In this document: one piece after another, positions 5,301 to 25,344 of the stretch | Numbering within the stretch: the first letter of the stretch is position 1 | How the letters are laid out: the number at the start of each line of letters is the position of its first letter | Source of the DNA: a virus | Length of the DNA stretch: 25,344 nt | IMG/VR virus record: IMGVR_UViG_3300028025_002813 | Location: 1-25,344 of that record | Strand: one strand, 5' to 3' | Made by a program: the position numbers and the translations under genes | The notes under the pieces: model-generated | Told to the model about the DNA's origin: nothing | Seen by the model: the letters and a program-made list of their open reading frames with translations, nothing else | The model's database searches: none

Positions 5301-7562
5301 ATGGCCATTATTATTCCGATTCTGTCTCAGTGGAACCCTACTGGGTTAAATAAAGCACTATCTGATATTAAGCGTGCTGAAACAGGCTTCGGTAAGTTCA
5401 AGGCTGGCATTAAAGGTCTAGCAGTCCCAGCAGCAGCAGCATTCGCAGCGATTACAGCTGGCGCACTCACATCTATCAGAGCAGCCGAAGAGGCTCAGGT
5501 AGCAAATAAAAGACTTTCAAATGTCTTAAAACAGATGGGCTACGGTCAGGCCACAGATCGTGTCCTAAATTATGCCGATGCTTTATCTAGACAAATCGCT
5601 AAAGAAGATGAGTCAATTAAGTTAGTCCAGGCAAAATTAGCAACATTTAAGAATCTCACTGCAACAGTTAATACAGCTGGTGGTGCTTTTGATAGAGCCA
5701 CAAAGGCTGCATTCGATTTGGCTGCTGCAGGCTTCGGCGAGGCTGAACAGTCAGCTACACAGTTAGGTAAAGCATTACAGGATCCTATTAAGGGAATCAC
5801 AGCATTGGCCAGATCAGGTGTCACATTTACTGAGGCCGAGAAAGAAAAGATTAAAACCCTAGTCGAGTCAGGTAAGGTACTCGAGGCACAAGATGTAATT
5901 CTTAAGGCCATTGAGACTCAGGTCGGTGGGACAGCAGCAGCAACAGCGACTGCAACTGAAAAGATGAAAATAGCATTCGGTGAGGCACAAGAGGCATTAG
6001 GTAATGCGTTACTACCAGCATTTGAACGTCTAGCACCTGTGGTCGAGAAGGTGTTTAAGTTTATACAAGATAATTCAGATATCTTTGTAACTTTGGCCAC
6101 TGTCATAGCAGCAACTACAGTTGCTGTTATTGGACTTAATATCGCTCTAGCACTAAATCCTTTCACATGGATTGTTGTCGGCATAGGCGCTGCTATTGTG
6201 CTCATCGCACTGGCTATCCAAAGATTTGAATATCTAAAACTGACAGTAATAAATATTGCTGCAGCAATCGCTCAGGTGTTTGTTTATATGGCTAATGCTG
6301 CTGCTGATGTGCTAACTAAGTTAGTAAATGAGTTCGTTAAAGGCTATAACACATATCTTCTACCAGCTATACGAGTCTTTAAAAAAGATGCACAGGCATT
6401 AGCACAGGTCGATTTCACTAAACCCTTCGATAATGCTAATGCTGCTATAGATGCGTTCGCAGCAGCAAACAGAAAGACCAGAGATGCGCTGGACTATAAC
6501 GTAGATGCTATCGGTGCTGTGACCAGTGCTGTGGGATCATTAACCCCAGCTATAGATGATTATGACATCGCTACGGCTAAGGCTACAAAGCAGGCAGACA
6601 AATTAACTAAGGCTATGGAAGCGCAGAAGAAAGCAGCCGAGGATGCTGCAAAAGCAATAGTTGATAACTTAGAGAAATCATTGCAAAGTGCTGAGCAACA
6701 ATTAGATGATGTAAAAGGTAAGTTTGATAACCTCAAGGACAGTATCTCGGGATCAGTAACTGACGTGGTCGATTTTGGTAAAGCCTTAGAGACAGGTAAC
6801 TTCATACAGGGTCTAGTAGGTCAGGCCACTGCAGCACGAACATTCGCAGACAAAATTAAACAGTTAATACAGATAGGTTTATCTGAGCGTGGTATTAGAC
6901 AGGTATTAGATGCAGGATATGAGTCTGGCACTCTTATAGCTGACCAGATTATTACTGGTGGTACCACAGTTGTTGAGCAAATAAATACATTAGTGGATTC
7001 CATCGCAGTCGTAGCTGATGAAGTGGGTATGCAGGGAGCACAGAACTTCTATCAGGCTGGTGTGGATAGCGCACAAGCATTAGTTAATGGCATCCTGTCA
7101 CAATTAACAGCAGCGCGAGCAGCATATAAAGCATTGACAGATGTCACAGGCACTACACCATCTGCCACCGATATCGCCCCATCAGGTAAAGGTGACACAC
7201 CTGGACCTAGACCAAAAATTGACACATCTAAATTAACCACCAGCGCAGTTTCAAAAATCGCTGCACAGTTAGGTGGCAGATCTGATGCTGCTGCTAGATC
7301 TTACACAGCATTAGCACAAGCCTATGGAATTACTAAGTTTGCCCAGGGTGGGATAGTCACCCAACCTATGATGGGACTTGTTGGTGAAGCAGGACCTGAA
7401 GCGATCATCCCTCTAAATAAAGCAGGTGGAGCGATAGGTAACACATTTAATATCACTGTGAACGCTGGTGTAGGAACTGATGGTGCAGCAGTCGGCAGAG
7501 TTATCGTGGATGCTATTAAGAAATTTGAAAAAACCTCAGGTCCAGTCTTTGCGAGTGCCTAA
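5301..7562 (+). CDS. Tail tape measure protein
   Basis: The longest gene here, 753 residues, follows the chaperone as expected. It is Ala-rich and mostly helical. An N-terminal coiled region (ALSDIKRAETGFGKFKAGI) is followed by the family's AxxAxxGLxxVAAAE-type stretch (ITAGALTSIRAAEEAQV). About residues 260-308 form strongly hydrophobic segments (FVTLATVIAATTVAVIGL and WIVVGIGAAIVLIALAI) that probably insert in the host membrane during DNA entry. Residues about 430-490 are a charged coiled coil. The C-terminus has the near-universal FAQGGIVTQPMMGLVGEAG followed by PEAIIPL, a late tape-measure motif. It sets tail length and is ejected into the cell. At this length the tail would be of modest size. 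Its stop overlaps the next start (TAATG). Confidence 0.92.
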   Translation: MAIIIPILSQWNPTGLNKALSDIKRAETGFGKFKAGIKGLAVPAAAAFAAITAGALTSIRAAEEAQVANKRLSNVLKQMGYGQATDRVLNYADALSRQIAKEDESIKLVQAKLATFKNLTATVNTAGGAFDRATKAAFDLAAAGFGEAEQSATQLGKALQDPIKGITALARSGVTFTEAEKEKIKTLVESGKVLEAQDVILKAIETQVGGTAAATATATEKMKIAFGEAQEALGNALLPAFERLAPVVEKVFKFIQDNSDIFVTLATVIAATTVAVIGLNIALALNPFTWIVVGIGAAIVLIALAIQRFEYLKLTVINIAAAIAQVFVYMANAAADVLTKLVNEFVKGYNTYLLPAIRVFKKDAQALAQVDFTKPFDNANAAIDAFAAANRKTRDALDYNVDAIGAVTSAVGSLTPAIDDYDIATAKATKQADKLTKAMEAQKKAAEDAAKAIVDNLEKSLQSAEQQLDDVKGKFDNLKDSISGSVTDVVDFGKALETGNFIQGLVGQATAARTFADKIKQLIQIGLSERGIRQVLDAGYESGTLIADQIITGGTTVVEQINTLVDSIAVVADEVGMQGAQNFYQAGVDSAQALVNGILSQLTAARAAYKALTDVTGTTPSATDIAPSGKGDTPGPRPKIDTSKLTTSAVSKIAAQLGGRSDAAARSYTALAQAYGITKFAQGGIVTQPMMGLVGEAGPEAIIPLNKAGGAIGNTFNITVNAGVGTDGAAVGRVIVDAIKKFEKTSGPVFASA

Positions 7563-8788
7563 TGCCAGCACCAGCTACTAAAGTCGAAATCGGATTTGAT
7601 TTATCAGCTCTAGGTGGACCGTTCTTTATATTAGATGATGCTGTTCAGGGTGTGTTAGATAACCCGACCTACACATTAGGTGGCACCTTATTTTATGATG
7701 TCTCATCAAAAGTACTAAATGTCAGTGTTAATCGTGGTAAGTCCAGGCAGTTAGATAAGTTCACAGCAGGTAACTCTAATATCTTATTCATAAATCAGGA
7801 TCGTGCGTTTGATCCTCTTAATGCTTCTAGTCCCTACTATGGGCAAATTGTCCCTAGACGTACTGTCAGAATTACTACCTCAGGCTCAGCTGTCTTTTAT
7901 GGATCTGTGGATGACTGGAACCTTAACTATGACATTTCAGGGTATTCGACTGCTGGTGCTGTCGTATCTGATGGTTTCACATATCTAGCGCAACAAGTAT
8001 TGACAGCACATACGGCTGTTTCACAAACGTCTGGAGCACGAATCGGTGCTGTGCTAGATCGTGCATCTGTGGACTGGCCAGCATCTCTAAGAGACTTAGA
8101 TGCAGGAGCGACCACATTACAGGCAGATGTCGTAGCTGATGGAACTAATGCTTTGGAATATTTGCAGTTAGTTAATTATTCTGAGCCAGGTAAATTATTT
8201 ATGGGTGCAGATGGGTACGTAACATTTAGAGATCGTACTGATGCACCAACATCTACAGGCCTAGTTACTTTCTCAGATACTGGCACAGGTATCCCATTTG
8301 TCGGAGTAGAAATCGTTTATGGCTCTGAGTTGTTATACAACTTCGTGCAGATAGAACGTAATAACGGTGGTACAGCTACAGCATCTGATTCAGATAGCCA
8401 GAACCAGTATGGTGTCGTGGCATTAGTGCAAGAGGGTCTTTTAATGGACACTGATGCTGATGCATCATCTCTAGCCAGTTTTCTATTAAGTAAATATTCT
8501 GAACCTGAATACAGGTTTGATCGTCTGACTGTGGCACTCGAGGATTTATCTAATGCAAATCAGTCATCTGTGCTTGGGCTAGAAATAGGTGATATAGCAC
8601 GCATTAGGTTTACGCCTAATCAAACTGGGACACAGATAGACAAATACGCTAGTATTATCGCTATAGATCATGACATACGACCTATGTCACATCGAATCAC
8701 ATATGGCTTTGAAACATTAGACTTTGCAAGTCTGATATTAGATGACAGCGTATTCGGTCTACTAGATGATGCATATCTAGGTTTTTAA
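7562..8788 (+). CDS. Minor tail protein (distal tail/baseplate type)
   Basis: A 408-residue protein directly after the tape measure, where distal tail and tail-associated proteins lie. It is beta-rich: YDVSSKVLNVSVNRGKSRQ and ILFINQDRAFDPLNASSPY, then GSVDDWNLNYDISG; this 'R-G-x-S-x-x-L-D-x-F-x-A-G' and 'N-x-D-x-x-F-D-P' arrangement is common in actinophage minor tail proteins. A repeated motif marks both ends: ILDDAVQGVLDN at residues 23-34 and ILDDSVFGLLDD at 392-403. No enzymatic domain is seen. It probably joins the tail tube to the tip or fibre and may bind the host surface. Confidence 0.7.
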   Translation: MPAPATKVEIGFDLSALGGPFFILDDAVQGVLDNPTYTLGGTLFYDVSSKVLNVSVNRGKSRQLDKFTAGNSNILFINQDRAFDPLNASSPYYGQIVPRRTVRITTSGSAVFYGSVDDWNLNYDISGYSTAGAVVSDGFTYLAQQVLTAHTAVSQTSGARIGAVLDRASVDWPASLRDLDAGATTLQADVVADGTNALEYLQLVNYSEPGKLFMGADGYVTFRDRTDAPTSTGLVTFSDTGTGIPFVGVEIVYGSELLYNFVQIERNNGGTATASDSDSQNQYGVVALVQEGLLMDTDADASSLASFLLSKYSEPEYRFDRLTVALEDLSNANQSSVLGLEIGDIARIRFTPNQTGTQIDKYASIIAIDHDIRPMSHRITYGFETLDFASLILDDSVFGLLDDAYLGF

Positions 8789-17382: not shown

Positions 17383-17679
17383 ATGAGAGAACCGATAGAT
17401 AGAGATGTGGTGCTGACTAATTATCAGCAGACATCTATTTTATCTGCGCAGAAGTTAATACCTAAATCGGGTACTAAGCGTAGAAAGATATATGACCTAA
17501 TACAGGAGTCTGGTGTGTTAGGTATGTGTGATCATGAAATAGAAGAAGTTACTGGTTGGAAGCATCAGACCGCATCTAGTAGTCGATGTGGTTTAGTTAA
17601 AGATGGCTGGGTTATTGACTCAGGTATGAAGCGATTAACTAACGATGGTAATAAAGCAATCGTCTGGATAGCATGCTGA
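17383..17679 (+). CDS. Winged-helix DNA-binding protein candidate
   Basis: A 98-residue protein with AAGGGGATAG before the ATG. Residues about 30-98 look like a winged helix: KRRKIYDLIQESGVLGMCD (helix 1), HEIEEVTGWKHQTASSSRCG (helices 2 and 3, the recognition helix), LVKDGWVIDSGMKRL (wing) and KAIVWIAC. The 'T-G-x-x-x-x-T-A-S-S-x-x-x-L-V-x-x-G-W-V' pattern is common in small phage transcription factors. It overlaps the start of the SPPY methyltransferase by seven bases, so it could control this modification operon or assist replication. DNA-binding fold likely, target unknown. Confidence 0.65.
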   Translation: MREPIDRDVVLTNYQQTSILSAQKLIPKSGTKRRKIYDLIQESGVLGMCDHEIEEVTGWKHQTASSSRCGLVKDGWVIDSGMKRLTNDGNKAIVWIAC

Positions 17680-18485
17680 ATCAAATATTAGTGGGTGACA
17701 ATGCTCAGCTAATTAAAACAATTTCAGATAGTTATGTGAACACGATTATTACATCACCACCGTATTATGGTCTGCGTGATTACGGTAATGATGCTCAGCT
17801 GGGCTTAGAGTCTACACCTGATGAGTACATATCTAAATTAGTTAAGTTATTTAACGAATGCAGGCGCGTGCTAAAAGACGATGGCACTTTATGGGTTAAT
17901 CTGGGTGACTCTTACGATAAAGATAAGAATCTCTATGGTATGCCCTGGCGTTTGGCTTTGGCACTAAAAGATGATGGGTGGATTTTGCGACAGGATGTTA
18001 TCTGGAGTAAAACAAACCCGATGCCTGAGCCAGTTAGAGATAGATGCGTAAAATCTCATGAATACATCTTTATGCTGTCTAAATCTAAAAGTTATTACTT
18101 TGACCATGAGGCTATACAAGAAGATGCCATACATAAAACCTCAGGTAATAGTGCGAGAAAACCAGCTACAGAACGAGGAGCACCTAAGGATATCTTGTCA
18201 GGTAATGCACCCTGGTCTGGCACTAAAAGAAATAAACGCAGTGTCTGGTCAGTTAGTGTTAAACCTTTTAAAGAGGCACACTTCGCCACATTCCCTGTCG
18301 ATTTGATTACGCCCTGTATCTTAGCTGGATGTCCTGTAGATGGTGTCGTGTTTGATCCCTTTATGGGTGCTGGTACTACAGCTGTAGCATCAAAACAATT
18401 ACAAAGAAATTACTTAGGTATCGAGTTAAATCCTGAGTATGTGCAGATATCTAAGAAAAGATTAGAGGGCGATTTCTTATTCTAA
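17673..18485 (+). CDS. DNA methyltransferase, N4-cytosine/N6-adenine (beta-type)
   Basis: A 270-residue enzyme with the amino-methyltransferase motifs in permuted order. The catalytic motif IV, TSPPYYGLRDYG (TSPPY at residues 27-31), is near the N-terminus, and the AdoMet-binding motif I, DPFMGAGTTAVAS (about residues 228-240), near the C-terminus, followed by RNYLGIELNPEYVQIS. SPPY is more usual in N4-cytosine enzymes, although N6-adenine enzymes can have it. Between them, DGTLWVNLGDSYDKDKNLYG and DVIWSKTNPMPE are typical. No restriction enzyme gene is adjacent, so it probably protects phage DNA or alters regulation. It is followed with no gap by the C5 methyltransferase. Confidence 0.87.
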   Translation: MLNQILVGDNAQLIKTISDSYVNTIITSPPYYGLRDYGNDAQLGLESTPDEYISKLVKLFNECRRVLKDDGTLWVNLGDSYDKDKNLYGMPWRLALALKDDGWILRQDVIWSKTNPMPEPVRDRCVKSHEYIFMLSKSKSYYFDHEAIQEDAIHKTSGNSARKPATERGAPKDILSGNAPWSGTKRNKRSVWSVSVKPFKEAHFATFPVDLITPCILAGCPVDGVVFDPFMGAGTTAVASKQLQRNYLGIELNPEYVQISKKRLEGDFLF

Positions 18486-19861
18486 CTGCTGTCAGTTTAT
18501 TTGCAGGTATAGGTGGCTTTGATTTAGCACTTAGTAATGCAGGTGTAAAAGTATGCGCATCTGTAGAGATAGACAATAAATGCAGGGATGTGTTATCTAA
18601 GCATTTCCCTGAAACTAAACTATTTACCGATATTAAGGATGTAACAGGTGAACAACTCAGAGCAACAGGATTTATTCCCGATAGAGGAATCATCACAGCT
18701 GGATTCCCATGCCAAGACCTCAGCGTTGCAGGACTGCGTAAGGGTTTGGCTGGAAGCCGATCTGGACTTTTCTGGGAAATCATACGACTGGTCGATGAAA
18801 CACAACCGAGATATCTCATCATTGAAAATGTCGCTGGACTCTTGTCATCGCAGTCAGGAAGAGATCTGGGTATCGTCATCGAAGCGTTGGTTGAACGCAG
18901 GTATGGCATCGCCTGGCGTGTGCTGGACTCTCAGCACTTCGGAGTGCCACAGCGCCGCAGACGTGTCTTTATTGTCGCAAGTCTTGGAGAACACAGAAGT
19001 CCAGTCAAAATATTATTTGAGCCAGAAAGCCGCACAGGGCATCTTGAGCCGAGCAAAAAGAAGAAACAAAACTCTACCAGATTATCTACATCAAGCGTTA
19101 ATGGCAATAGCTCAGTAGATGCACAATTATTTGATGCTACGAGAAATGCTGATGTCAGATTTTATGATCAGTCACCTACGATGAAAGCACGTTGGGGTAC
19201 TGGTGGTAATAATGTGCCGATGCTCGCGTTACCTATACAAGATGGTCGTGATATAGAAAAGAAACAAAATGGTTTAGGTGTGGGCGTTACTGATGCGCCA
19301 TCATATACATTAGATGCGACTGGAGCACAGGCTGTTGCTTATGTGCCAAGAGTTGCGACTATGCAGGGTATAGGTGATTATGCTGACACTGGTGTTGCCT
19401 CTACTATGAAACAGCGTGATTACAAAGATGCAAGAGATTTAATAGTGACTCAGCCCATAGCGTTCGATACATATAATCAGACTGTATCTAATCAGAATCA
19501 AACTCTTTCTAGTGCTGCATCAGACTCCAGCCATTACGGCACAGTGTTCTTGCCAGATAATCAGCCTAATGTGTTGATGAGAAATCGTGAGGGGAAACCC
19601 GGGGGTGGAAAAGGTCCACTGATGAGTGAGGATCTATCTTTAACTATCGCTACATCTAATGATCAGACACTATTTACTAAAGGCACAGTGCGTAGACTTA
19701 CTCCGACTGAGTGTGAAAGACTGCAAGCATTTCCAGATGGGTGGACAGCTGGACAGTCCGACTCAGCTAGATATAAACAATTAGGTAACGCTGTAACTGT
19801 GTCGGTAGTTGCGTGGATAGTTAATCGTATGGTATCTGTTGATGAGGCAAATACTAAATAG
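18479..19861 (+). CDS. DNA (cytosine-5) methyltransferase, probable AUU start
   Basis: All C5 motifs are seen: motif I SLFAGIGGFDLAL at the very N-terminus, GFPCQDLSVAG with catalytic Cys (about residue 78), ENVAG, QRRRRVFIVAS, a long target-recognition region (about 19040-19680), then RRLTPTECERLQAFPDGW and LGNAVTVSV. The first canonical start (GTG 18590) would delete motif I and the enzyme could not bind AdoMet. No ATG, GTG or TTG lies between it and the upstream stop. ATT 18479, preceded by AGAGGG, gives a clean start reading L-T-A-V-S-L-F-A-G and a 460-residue protein. ATT overlaps the end of the previous gene. It methylates cytosine in DNA, likely against host restriction. The recognition region is long, with several Q/N/S-rich repeats, so it might read more than one site. 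Confidence 0.87.
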   Translation: MLTAVSLFAGIGGFDLALSNAGVKVCASVEIDNKCRDVLSKHFPETKLFTDIKDVTGEQLRATGFIPDRGIITAGFPCQDLSVAGLRKGLAGSRSGLFWEIIRLVDETQPRYLIIENVAGLLSSQSGRDLGIVIEALVERRYGIAWRVLDSQHFGVPQRRRRVFIVASLGEHRSPVKILFEPESRTGHLEPSKKKKQNSTRLSTSSVNGNSSVDAQLFDATRNADVRFYDQSPTMKARWGTGGNNVPMLALPIQDGRDIEKKQNGLGVGVTDAPSYTLDATGAQAVAYVPRVATMQGIGDYADTGVASTMKQRDYKDARDLIVTQPIAFDTYNQTVSNQNQTLSSAASDSSHYGTVFLPDNQPNVLMRNREGKPGGGKGPLMSEDLSLTIATSNDQTLFTKGTVRRLTPTECERLQAFPDGWTAGQSDSARYKQLGNAVTVSVVAWIVNRMVSVDEANTK

Positions 19862-22295: not shown

Positions 22296-22435
22296 TTACT
22301 AGAAATAATGACGATGGGTCAGTGACTTTTATCTTCGAGTCATGGGATGAGTTAATTAAATCTGAGCCTAAGTGGGAGCCAGATGCAGATTTATGGGCTA
22401 AAGATAGAGCAGATCAGAGGGCGTGGGACTACTGA
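22292..22435 (+). CDS. Small acidic protein, unknown (47 aa), GTG start
   Basis: A longer open frame begins at 22187, but its first 35 residues are a shadow of the genes at 21849 and 22203. The start that fits is GTG 22292, overlapping the stop before it (GTGA). The 47-residue product reads ITRNNDDGSVTFIFESWDEL then KSEPKWEPDADLWAKDRAD. It is strongly acidic and Trp-rich (four Trp), like some DNA-mimic or inhibitor proteins, although this is only a resemblance. It overlaps the XF1762-like gene at its end. Confidence 0.5.
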   Translation: MITRNNDDGSVTFIFESWDELIKSEPKWEPDADLWAKDRADQRAWDY

Positions 22436-22911
22436 AAAGTAATAATCAATCCAAATTATATGCAGTGCCTATCACCTTTCGTGCTGCATCTACTTTTGTA
22501 AAGGATTTGCATCGACATCATAAACCACCAGCTGGTCATAAGTTTAGTATCGGAGTATCAAACGCTGATGGGGTATTAGTAGGTGTGGCCATGTCTGGTA
22601 GACCCTCAGCTAGACACTGGGATGATGGATACACAATAGAAGTTATCAGGACCTGCACCGATGGTACACCTAATGCTAATAGTTTTCTTTATGGTGCATC
22701 ATGGCAGGCTGCAAAAGCAATGGGGTATCACAGGGCTATAACTTACACTCAAGATGGTGAATCGGGATCATCTTTGCGAGGTGCTGGCTGGAAAGTGATT
22801 GGTATTAGGAAGCCAAGAGGTAATTGGCACGAATCATCTAATGCATTAAAACTAATAAGAGATCCTGATGTTAAGGGATGGATTCAGAGAACAGTCTGGG
22901 AGATATCATAA
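22423..22911 (+). CDS. XF1762-family / Mom-like GNAT-fold protein
   Basis: A 162-residue protein with the XF1762 pattern: ITFRAASTFVKDLHRHHKPP, then GHKFSIGVSNADGVLVGVAM, SGRPSARHWDDGYTIEVIRT, CTDGTPNANSFLYGASWQAA and YHRAITYTQDGESGSSLRGA followed by GWKVIG. The fold is GNAT-like ('S-F-L-Y-G-A', then 'G-x-S-L-R-G-A-G-W'), and phage Mu Mom, a DNA-modifying protein, is structurally related. The gene is at GTG 22423. It may modify phage DNA or a small molecule. Its presence with two methyltransferases suggests defence against restriction, but family members have no settled function. Its end overlaps a tiny gene. Confidence 0.7.
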   Translation: MGLLKSNNQSKLYAVPITFRAASTFVKDLHRHHKPPAGHKFSIGVSNADGVLVGVAMSGRPSARHWDDGYTIEVIRTCTDGTPNANSFLYGASWQAAKAMGYHRAITYTQDGESGSSLRGAGWKVIGIRKPRGNWHESSNALKLIRDPDVKGWIQRTVWEIS

Positions 22912-23032: not shown

Positions 23033-23371
23033 ATGTTAAAAGACTGCACACACAACGCTCTAGATGGCACACAGATATGTGCAGAGTGTCCTAGACCTGA
23101 CAGCTGGAAACTGTTTGCAGAGTGCAGGAAGCATGACCCAGACTTATGGTTCACAGGTGAAGATATCCCATCCCAGTGCCTCAAGGCTGTAAAGATATGC
23201 ATGTCCTGTCCAGTTCGAGGCTACTGTCTTGAAAAAGGCTGGCAGGAACGATTCGGTATCTGGGGTTCATTTACAGCATTAGAACGAGAAAGACTCAGAC
23301 GTGTATTCCCTATGCATGCTGATATCAAAGTCAGACGTAGACTCATACGCACTATCGCACATCGACTGTAA
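23033..23371 (+). CDS. WhiB-family iron-sulphur transcription factor
   Basis: A 112-residue protein with the WhiB layout: Cys31 in FAECRKHDPDLWF, then Cys56, Cys59 and Cys65 in ICMSCPVRGYCLEKGW (C-x2-C-x5-C), and the FGIWGSFTALERERLRR turn (G-I-W-G) and basic end. The four Cys hold a 4Fe-4S cluster, and the protein binds the main sigma factor to regulate promoters. WhiB proteins occur only in Actinobacteria and their phages, so this gene is the strongest host clue in the window. An N-terminal extension has extra Cys (C5, C16, C19). It has no ribosome-binding site and may be translated from a leaderless RNA. It may adjust host or phage transcription, or block superinfection, as for some mycobacteriophage WhiB proteins. 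Confidence 0.93.
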   Translation: MLKDCTHNALDGTQICAECPRPDSWKLFAECRKHDPDLWFTGEDIPSQCLKAVKICMSCPVRGYCLEKGWQERFGIWGSFTALERERLRRVFPMHADIKVRRRLIRTIAHRL

Positions 23372-23769: not shown

Positions 23770-24059
23770 CACCTGAGATATTTGAAGATGAGGTAGGTCA
23801 GCGTATTAGAACTAAGATGCGTAACTATGCCATTGAGCATTATGGGTCAGAGATAAAAGGGCTAGATGAATCATTAGATAGGACATGTGTGATCGTGGGT
23901 ATGACTCGCGAGGCTGTGGTCGAAGCATTAGAGGCTGAGATATCGGTAATGTGTTTCCGTAACTCTACTGGAGATGAGATACCAGTCACATTTATCGGTG
24001 GGGTGCTACATGCGCAGGATGTTATCCAGGGCAAGAACTCAATGATGGGTAAGAGCTGA
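23766..24059 (+). CDS. Unknown small protein (97 aa), source of terminal inverted copy
   Basis: ATG 23766 overlaps the HNH stop (ATGA); a longer frame from 23688 is a shadow. The 97-residue acidic protein reads TPEIFEDEVGQRIRTKMRNY, then SLDRTCVIVGMTREAVVEAL and FRNSTGDEIPVTFIGGVLHA. It is a mixed helix/strand protein without a catalytic motif. Bases 23804-23909 of this gene recur exactly, inverted, at the right end of the window. Its stop overlaps the next start by one base. Confidence 0.55.
   Translation: MTPEIFEDEVGQRIRTKMRNYAIEHYGSEIKGLDESLDRTCVIVGMTREAVVEALEAEISVMCFRNSTGDEIPVTFIGGVLHAQDVIQGKNSMMGKS
23804..23909 (+). repeat. Left copy of a 106-base perfect inverted repeat
   Basis: This stretch, inside the gene at 23766, is identical base for base to the reverse complement of 25239-25344. 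The copies are separated by 1329 bases. The match ends at the window edge on one side and at a GC microhomology on the other. Confidence 0.97.
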
Positions 24060-24289
24060 TGAGTAAAGGTAAGGGTAGGCAGTTAGTTAAGACATCACGT
24101 AATGACAACAGACCTAATGGTAAAGCGTTTAAGAAACGACCAGTGGATTTGGCCAAGCGTTACACAGGTCGCACAGTTAATGGTTATAGTCCAGCTAAGT
24201 TAAAACTGCGTGCAAAGAAACGTGCCTATGTTAAGTCGCATACACCTAACGAAGTGACTATAGAAGCGATGAATGAGGCTGCAGACTAA
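24059..24289 (+). CDS. Very basic small protein, possible nucleic-acid-binding (76 aa)
   Basis: A 76-residue protein with a strongly basic body: SKGKGRQLVKTSRNDNRPNG, KAFKKRPVDLAKRYTGRTVN and LKLRAKKRAYVKSHTPNEVT, then an acidic helical end (IEAMNEAAD). It looks like ribosomal or DNA-binding small proteins. Its ATG shares a base with the previous stop and its own stop shares a base with the Ntn-hydrolase start. It may bind DNA or RNA, or be a partner of the Ntn hydrolase encoded directly after it. No family recognised. Confidence 0.5.
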   Translation: MSKGKGRQLVKTSRNDNRPNGKAFKKRPVDLAKRYTGRTVNGYSPAKLKLRAKKRAYVKSHTPNEVTIEAMNEAAD

Positions 24290-24906
24290 TGACTACTATC
24301 GCTGTCACCATGTCAGATAAATACGCATACATCTGTTCAGAATCTGGTATAACTGACGAATCTTTTCATACGATGCCGGGTATGCCAAAAATAGTTCGGC
24401 AAGATGAGTGGTTGATAGCAGCAGCAGGAGCCGATAGAACTTGCGATGTACTGCAATACCAAATCAAATATCCTGTAGTACCGAACACACTTAAGTCAGC
24501 ACCAGATCAGAAATGGTACGAGTGGATATCTAAACGTGTCATCCCACGCATAAGAGATGGCGCACAGAAAGAACTCAGCCTGGACACTAAAGATGGTGTA
24601 GCTGAACTACCTGACTCAGAAATTATCCTGGTCACACATGGTCGAGCATTCGGTATCTCAGCATCACTAGGCATATCACGACTACACCCATATTGGGCTA
24701 TCGGTTCAGGTGGATCTATAAGTCTAGGAGCATTAGCCATCACATACGCTAACGAAACAGACTGGAACGAAAGACATGAAGATTATTGCTACTCAGCTGT
24801 AGAGGCTGCAGTTAAACACGACTCATTTAGTCACGCACCCATACAGGGATATAAGTCACTACGCACAGGCAGGATCATCGAGTGGGCTTCCAAAGACCAT
24901 GTTTAG
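24289..24906 (+). CDS. HslV/20S proteasome beta-like Ntn hydrolase
   Basis: A 205-residue protein that follows HslV: M-TTIAVTMSDKYAYICSESG, then MPKIVRQDEWLIAAAGA, SEIILVTHGRAFGISASLG and YWAIGSGGSISLGALAIT. If the first Met is removed, Thr1 is the nucleophile; counted from it, Lys33 falls exactly at the K in MPKIV, as in HslV and proteasome subunits. Position 17, normally Asp, is Glu here (in CSESG). The GSGG turn is at processed residues 138-141, near the Ser124/129 region. The rest (NERHEDYCYSAVEAAVKHD) is helical. HslV and proteasomes degrade proteins unfolded by a partner ATPase; no such gene is here, so it may use a host ATPase, work alone on small substrates, or have a non-proteolytic job. 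Confidence 0.8.
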   Translation: MTTIAVTMSDKYAYICSESGITDESFHTMPGMPKIVRQDEWLIAAAGADRTCDVLQYQIKYPVVPNTLKSAPDQKWYEWISKRVIPRIRDGAQKELSLDTKDGVAELPDSEIILVTHGRAFGISASLGISRLHPYWAIGSGGSISLGALAITYANETDWNERHEDYCYSAVEAAVKHDSFSHAPIQGYKSLRTGRIIEWASKDHV

Positions 24907-25190
24907 ATTGTGGTTTATTAACACAGAAAGGTAACCGATGCCCCACCCATCAGACCCAATACCAGGCACGACTAGATAGCAGAAAAGACAGACGACACTA
25001 TAGAGGAGATTATGCAAAGAGAGCAAAGCACGTCAGAGAAACAGCTACAGTCTGCTGGTTATGTCATGAGGGATACAGACCTAACGATCCCTGGACAGCC
25101 GACCACTACATTCCAGGTTCCCCAGCCAGTCCACTACTCAGCGCACACAGATCTTGCAACTCGAGAAGAGGAAACAAACCACCTAGATAA
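24882..25190 (+). CDS. HNH endonuclease, likely packaging-associated, GTG start
   Basis: A 102-residue protein starting at GTG 24882, with AGGA upstream, overlapping the Ntn-hydrolase gene. An N-terminal zinc site (C7, C10, C20, H23 in CLDCG...CPTHQ) precedes the HNH domain: VCWLCHEGYRPNDPWTADHY, with C58, C61 and D74-H75, then SAHRSCNSRRG with H89, C92, N93. The 'A-D-H...H-x-x-C-N-x-x-R-G' order is that of HNH proteins encoded beside cos sites and terminases in many actinophages, where they assist terminase in cutting DNA. A possible cos region follows immediately. It is the last gene before the chimeric end of the window. Confidence 0.87.
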   Translation: MGFQRPCLDCGLLTQKGNRCPTHQTQYQARLDSRKDRRHYRGDYAKRAKHVRETATVCWLCHEGYRPNDPWTADHYIPGSPASPLLSAHRSCNSRRGNKPPR

Positions 25191-25238: not shown

Positions 25239-25344
25239 GCGAGTCATACCCACGATCACACATGTCCTATCTAATGATTCATCTAGCCCTTTTATCTCTG
25301 ACCCATAATGCTCAATGGCATAGTTACGCATCTTAGTTCTAATA
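25239..25344 (-). repeat. Right copy of the 106-base inverted repeat (probable fold-back chimera)
   Basis: Exact reverse complement of 23804-23909, running to the last base of the window. Complete identity and an abrupt start suggest a recent copying artefact (inverted chimera) rather than an evolved repeat. An apparent open frame reaching 25308 crosses this junction and is not a gene. Confidence 0.95.

Follow-up and report, generated by a model that had tools for sequence, protein, structure and literature searches.

A proteasome-like Ntn hydrolase gene beside a terminal HNH endonuclease gene at the right cos end of a probable actinobacterial siphophage

The gene at positions 24289-24906 of the window, which here means the whole stretch of 25,344 nucleotides that was analyzed (IMG/VR record IMGVR_UViG_3300028025_002813), encodes a protein with the homology, the fold and the active-site residue set of the proteasome-like Ntn hydrolases. 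The gene is under purifying selection and is linked to an HNH endonuclease gene at the right cos end of the genome. The encoded protein is, in our judgment, rather likely to be a catalytically competent, ring-forming, BPH-like peptidase of group I (HslV/BPH) that is made without a propeptide and works without an unfoldase of its own. The gene and its catalytic features are given below, with Thr2 of the reading frame taken as mature position 1, so that Glu18 becomes residue 17 and Lys34 becomes residue 33.

24289..24906, + strand: proteasome-like Ntn hydrolase gene, 205 aa, phrog_1040 "peptidase HslV family", propeptide-free
24292..24294, + strand: Thr1 codon, predicted nucleophile once Met is gone; Thr in 182/182 relatives
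24340..24342, + strand: Glu17 codon, predicted triad acid; Asp in 172 and Glu in 10 of 182 relatives
24388..24390, + strand: Lys33 codon, predicted triad base; Lys in 182/182 relatives
24703..24714, + strand: GSGG turn (residues 139-142) with the Ser129 equivalent; Ser in 146, Thr in 34 and Cys in 2 of 182 relatives
24820..24831, + strand: DSFS, holding the Asp166 and Ser169 equivalents at the proteasome-like +3 spacing; roles according to PMC4792962

The translation of 24289-24906 begins with MTTIAVTMSDKYAYICSESGITDESFHTMPGMPK. An earlier note, made from the sequence alone, had placed Thr1 and Lys33 at the HslV positions, a Glu at the position of Asp17 and a GSGG turn in this protein, and all of these are present in the translation. 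Ser140, Asp178 and Ser181 of the protein occupy the expected places of Ser129, Asp166 and Ser169. The homologues agree with the assignment: Thr1 and Lys33 are kept together in all 182 phage relatives, position 17 is Asp or Glu in every one of them, and the glycine on the oxyanion side is conserved in 179. The reading frame has 209 codons and opens just four codons 5' of the ATG; the list of open reading frames uses the first possible start and has none earlier for this one. The protein is therefore made without a propeptide. Among the proteasome homologues, propeptides are confined to the 20S beta subunits and HslV (Fuchs et al., PMC8665760).

The glutamate at position 17 had been described as unusual, a claim that did not hold. 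The published proteasome triad consists of Thr1, Lys33 and Asp/Glu17 (Huber et al., PMC4792962), and Glu17 is thus an accepted variant. The 20S beta subunit of Thermoplasma carries Glu17, and the E17A mutation of that subunit is inactivating (cited in PMC4792962). In the phylogenetic tree the window clade and the protein of contig L263 form one group with support of 100/99, and the L263 gene, which occupies the same gene slot as that of the window, encodes Asp17. Asp and Glu have therefore been exchanged within a single lineage, and Glu17 as an anomaly was ruled out on both grounds.

The assignment of the protein to the proteasome/HslV type of Ntn hydrolase, proposed from the sequence alone, is supported by profile search, by fold and by the active-site residues, with similarities much stronger than chance would give. 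In the PHROG profile search, phrog_1040 ("peptidase HslV family") matches residues 1-189 with an E of 7.3e-14. The Pfam search of the protein gave no match. When the protein was used as a single query against the PDB, BPH was found with an E of 9.4e-4; a profile of 19 phage proteins matched HslV with an E of 8.8e-20 and BPH with an E of 9.7e-15, and with a profile of 42 relatives BPH ranks first (E of 1.1e-12). The HslV models TIGR03692 and NF003964 and the bacterial 20S beta model TIGR03690 (PrcB) gave no match to the protein at E ≤ 1; an E of 0.2 was obtained for TIGR03690 with the homologue in L003. With the window protein as tblastn query, none of 50,697 phage records was matched at E ≤ 0.01. 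The distant relatives were found stepwise, from the 80%-identical homologue in L003 to those of DSL-LC01 and WaterT, and the search with the WaterT protein reached 494 records. A viral scan in which the Pumpernickel protein was the query gave no match, and no relative was found in bacterial genomes by the patterns used. The Ntn protein of phage contig L121 has relatives of 24-30% identity on large plasmids of Rhizobium, Sinorhizobium and Mesorhizobium. In four relatives of the window protein (in L201 at 7443-8198, and in L215, L203 and L200) the C-terminus is longer by about 20-45 residues, and the added stretch overlaps the HNH gene. The dN/dS of the gene is 0.03-0.15 against relatives of 60-98% identity, the distant pairs being near saturation of dS; this strong purifying selection shows that a functional protein has been retained.

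The structure of the protein was predicted using AlphaFold2 with 42 aligned relatives, which gave a pLDDT of 88.7 and a pTM of 0.87; a model built from four near-identical sequences had a pLDDT of 30.6 and was discarded. The retained model has the full four-layer Ntn sandwich, with its strands and its helix pairs H1/H2 and H3/H4 correctly ordered, as the earlier note had anticipated. Neither of the two observations that the note had named as refuting it, a model that lacks this fold or homologues that lack Thr1 and Lys33, was made. Helices are predicted at residues 49-58 and 73-96. The first five matches of a Foldseek search against the PDB are all BPH, with an E of 2.5e-11. In the VIA-align comparison, BPH has a Z of 20.0 with an rmsd of 2.7 over 172 residues, the 20S beta subunits tie with it, and the Mtb proteasome entry 3mka is found at Z 19.3; because of these ties the scores establish the fold and not the subfamily. 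The nearest viral model is that of the uncharacterized phage protein A0A6J5RF45, with 42% identity. The predicted loop at the position of the BPH pore loop spans approximately residues 96-110 and contains four acidic residues and one basic residue, which makes it less acidic than that of BPH; in the sequence alignment its length is about that of the BPH loop.

The genes and sequence elements around the Ntn gene are as follows.

23033..23371, + strand: WhiB-like regulator, phrog_472, E of 6.7e-16
24059..24289, + strand: basic protein of 76 aa, pI 10.7; not a conserved partner
24882..25190, + strand: HNH endonuclease, phrog_338, E of 4.6e-5; overlaps the end of the Ntn gene and is the last gene before cos
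25239..25344, no strand: foldback artefact, 106 nt, an exact inverted copy of 23804-23909

The inverted copy of 106 nt is absent at the same place from the relatives L001, L002 and L003, and the terminal 106 bases of the window are therefore an assembly foldback. By comparison with the relatives, the actual cos end falls near 25249. When mapped on the spanning contig L002, the ends of L001 and L003 and the starts of L187-L190 and L193 fall on two points 10 nt apart (CCCGAGCCCA), a pattern that probably reflects a cos site with a single-stranded overhang of these 10 nt. The proposal of a genome end at this place is thus borne out as a cos end, and it fails for the last 106 bases; an end that is artefact only was rejected, given where the contigs of the relatives end. 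On the other side of cos, L189 encodes a ParB/methyltransferase, TerS, TerL, the portal, a head-maturation protease, the major capsid protein and a glycosyltransferase, and its other end overlaps the start of the window with 92% identity over 1.8 kb. The gene order can therefore be written as WhiB-HNH-x-basic-Ntn-HNH-cos-ParB/MTase-TerS-TerL-portal-protease-capsid.

The window also encodes a head-tail adaptor, a tape measure protein, an integrase, an exonuclease and a primase-like protein. Judged from its gene content it is probably a temperate siphophage, and the WhiB gene points to an actinobacterial host. DSL-LC01 and two relatives likewise have a WhiB gene no more than about 1 kb from the Ntn gene (L005:6001-6954, L024:6001-7024 and L025:5004-6591). 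Other genes of the window include one for a Mom-like DNA modification protein at 22423-22911 (phrog_1384, E of 1.3e-36) and two for DNA methyltransferases at 17673-18485 and 18590-19861. The stretch 102-2263 codes for two glycosyltransferases and a heptose kinase/adenyltransferase-like protein. Sugar-transfer genes are unusually placed here, with the major capsid protein (on the L189 side) to one side and the head-tail adaptor to the other.

Both flanks of the Ntn gene, the basic protein upstream and the HNH protein downstream, are as the earlier note described them. The Ntn-HNH pair is kept in nine further relatives, six at 59-64% identity, the one in L221, where the locus is cut by the contig end, and two at 32-37%. 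The gene at 24059 had been put forward as a partner of the Ntn gene. Its product was found in four relatives (L200, L201, L203 and L215) and not detected in L253, L241, L263 or L264, on which ground it was rejected as a conserved partner. The HNH gene, kept beside the Ntn gene in all nine, is thus the fixed neighbor, the basic protein having been found in only four of them. In the Arthrobacter phages Hum25 and Pitbull the right genome end has a terminal HNH gene, with a distant Ntn gene a few genes ahead of it; the left genome end of Hum25 starts with TerS. The claim that no HslU- or ClpX-like ATPase is encoded nearby is supported: searches for AAA and AAA_2 domains in the window, and in the contigs of L189, L190, L201 and L215, gave no match. 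L201 and L215 are near-complete relatives with contigs of 35-36 kb. These searches cover the phage side, and a host HslU or ClpX could be the partner.

The favored reading of the protein as a BPH-like peptidase can be set out as a sequence of steps. Met1 would be removed by the methionine aminopeptidase of the host. The subunits may assemble into a double ring like that of BPH or HslV with Thr1 inside, as the predicted fold suggests. Glu17 would orient Lys33, Lys33 would deprotonate Thr1, and Thr1 would cut peptides. Unfolded or flexible proteins would most likely be taken, or a host unfoldase borrowed, by analogy with what has been proposed for BPH, because no unfoldase of its own was detected for the phage. 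Candidate substrates are a regulator of the host or the phage and stress-damaged protein. BPH is a tetradecameric double ring with no known unfoldase, and the literature on it favors an unfoldase-free, possibly specialized proteolysis (PMC5777263). It was inactive on the model substrates tried (PMC5777263), and catalytic residues are therefore no guarantee of general proteolysis. No functional study of phage proteasome-like genes was found in the literature searched. The syntenic set Ntn-HNH-cos-ParB/MTase-TerS-TerL, with variants having D17 and E17 in the same slot, is amenable to genetics and biochemistry, which could reveal what such enzymes do for phages.

A narrower function would be that of a dedicated processing protease of the packaging step, whose target would be the HNH protein, the terminase or some other late protein with its gene near cos. 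This is rather unlikely in our view. It would account for the terminal HNH gene that directly follows the Ntn gene in 13 of the 13 contigs of the window lineage that show both, for the arrangement of the genome ends in Hum25 and Pitbull, and for the place of the gene directly after the portal gene in contigs of the ct2KA10 type. Elsewhere in phages, however, the gene adjoins ThyX, DNA ligase, lysis or exonuclease genes; nearness at the end of a genome arm can be plain gene order, and no cleavage site is known. In the ct2KA10-like contigs the Ntn gene is directly 3' of the portal gene in 78 of 79 cases, and it is so in 29 more contigs, L121:1337-6220 and L029:2058-7267 being examples of the arrangement; this slot is the usual position of the prohead protease in many phages. 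Among 11 contigs with the portal-Ntn arrangement no head protease of the S78 or phrog_80 type was found, these being the types sought. A self-compartmentalized protease that is tied to the HNH/terminase module of the cos end and works in genome packaging or in the late switch, together with a proteasome-type enzyme that replaces the prohead protease in the related phages with the order TerL-portal-Ntn, is a speculative and improbable combination. Head maturation in the phage of the window itself is an extremely unlikely role. The protein has a protease fold, is encoded by a tailed phage and has relatives that adjoin the portal gene elsewhere, but a canonical protease of this kind is encoded in the left arm of this phage group (L189; phrog_80, E of 1.6e-89; Peptidase_S78, E of 1.4e-45), and WaterT carries both an Ntn and a head-maturation protease gene. 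With the canonical enzyme across cos, the Ntn protein is not needed for head maturation, and this role was rejected. The suggestion that the protein processes a virion protein accordingly falls in its head-maturation form.

Actinobacteria often have PrcAB, and it had been suggested that the protein could be a decoy. A subunit that inhibits the 20S proteasome of the host, or acts as its decoy, would fit with the commonness of PrcAB in these hosts and with the beta-subunit fold of the protein, which resembles that of the Mtb proteasome. The suggestion is very improbable, since by sequence and by profile the protein is closest to BPH/HslV and it gave no match to the bacterial 20S beta model; a decoy could do without the invariant catalytic triad, whose residues here are under strong purifying selection, and the host is not known to have a proteasome. 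A non-proteolytic Ntn enzyme, for example an amidase or a ligase like connectase, is quite improbable. The proteasome-like family includes a ligase, the monomeric connectase (PMC8665760). The window protein, however, keeps the peptidase residues and BPH-like helices H1/H2, which are absent from connectase, and its AlphaFold2 model is without a helical insertion between strands 3 and 4.

Proteasome-like genes of this type are already known in many phages, and the window protein adds a new lineage to them. Phage members of phrog_1040 share with it homology over the full length, Thr1, Lys33 and the GSG turn, and they are likewise phage-borne with no known AAA+ partner; the window clade forms a lineage of its own (100/99 with L263), with 205 aa and Glu17, and the window protein is approximately 14-27% identical to the aligned members from named phages. 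BPH (5OVS/5OVT/5OVU) is both the best solved fold and the best sequence match, and the two have in common a loop at the pore-loop position and no known unfoldase; BPH differs in being bacterial, in having Asp17 and a Lys at 37, and in its identity of 16-19% to the window protein. The fold, Thr1, Lys33 and IGSGG are shared with HslV, whereas the HslV equivalog models missed the window protein, no HslU was found and residue 17 is Glu. The 20S beta subunit of Thermoplasma acidophilum (1pma, among the structure matches) shares the triad of Thr1, Glu17 and Lys33; it differs in that it works inside alpha rings and needs processing of a propeptide, and the identity is about 16%. The phage proteasome homologues PPH and AAH have been described, with no functional context found (Fuchs, Alva and Lupas 2021, PMC8665760). 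Like the window protein they are group I proteasome homologues of phages with no identified AAA+ partner, but PPH has approximately 140 aa and is without helix H2, whereas the window protein has 205 aa and includes H2 (PMC8665760 for PPH). The comparison, which covered PPH, HslV and PrcB, thus sets the window protein apart from these three. No actinobacteria-specific phage with AAH was reported by Fuchs et al. (2021, PMC8665760). Proteasome-like genes occur in several actinobacterial phages, namely DSL-LC01, WaterT, Hum25, Pumpernickel and the window clade, and more than one lineage is represented: such phages harbor several separate ones.
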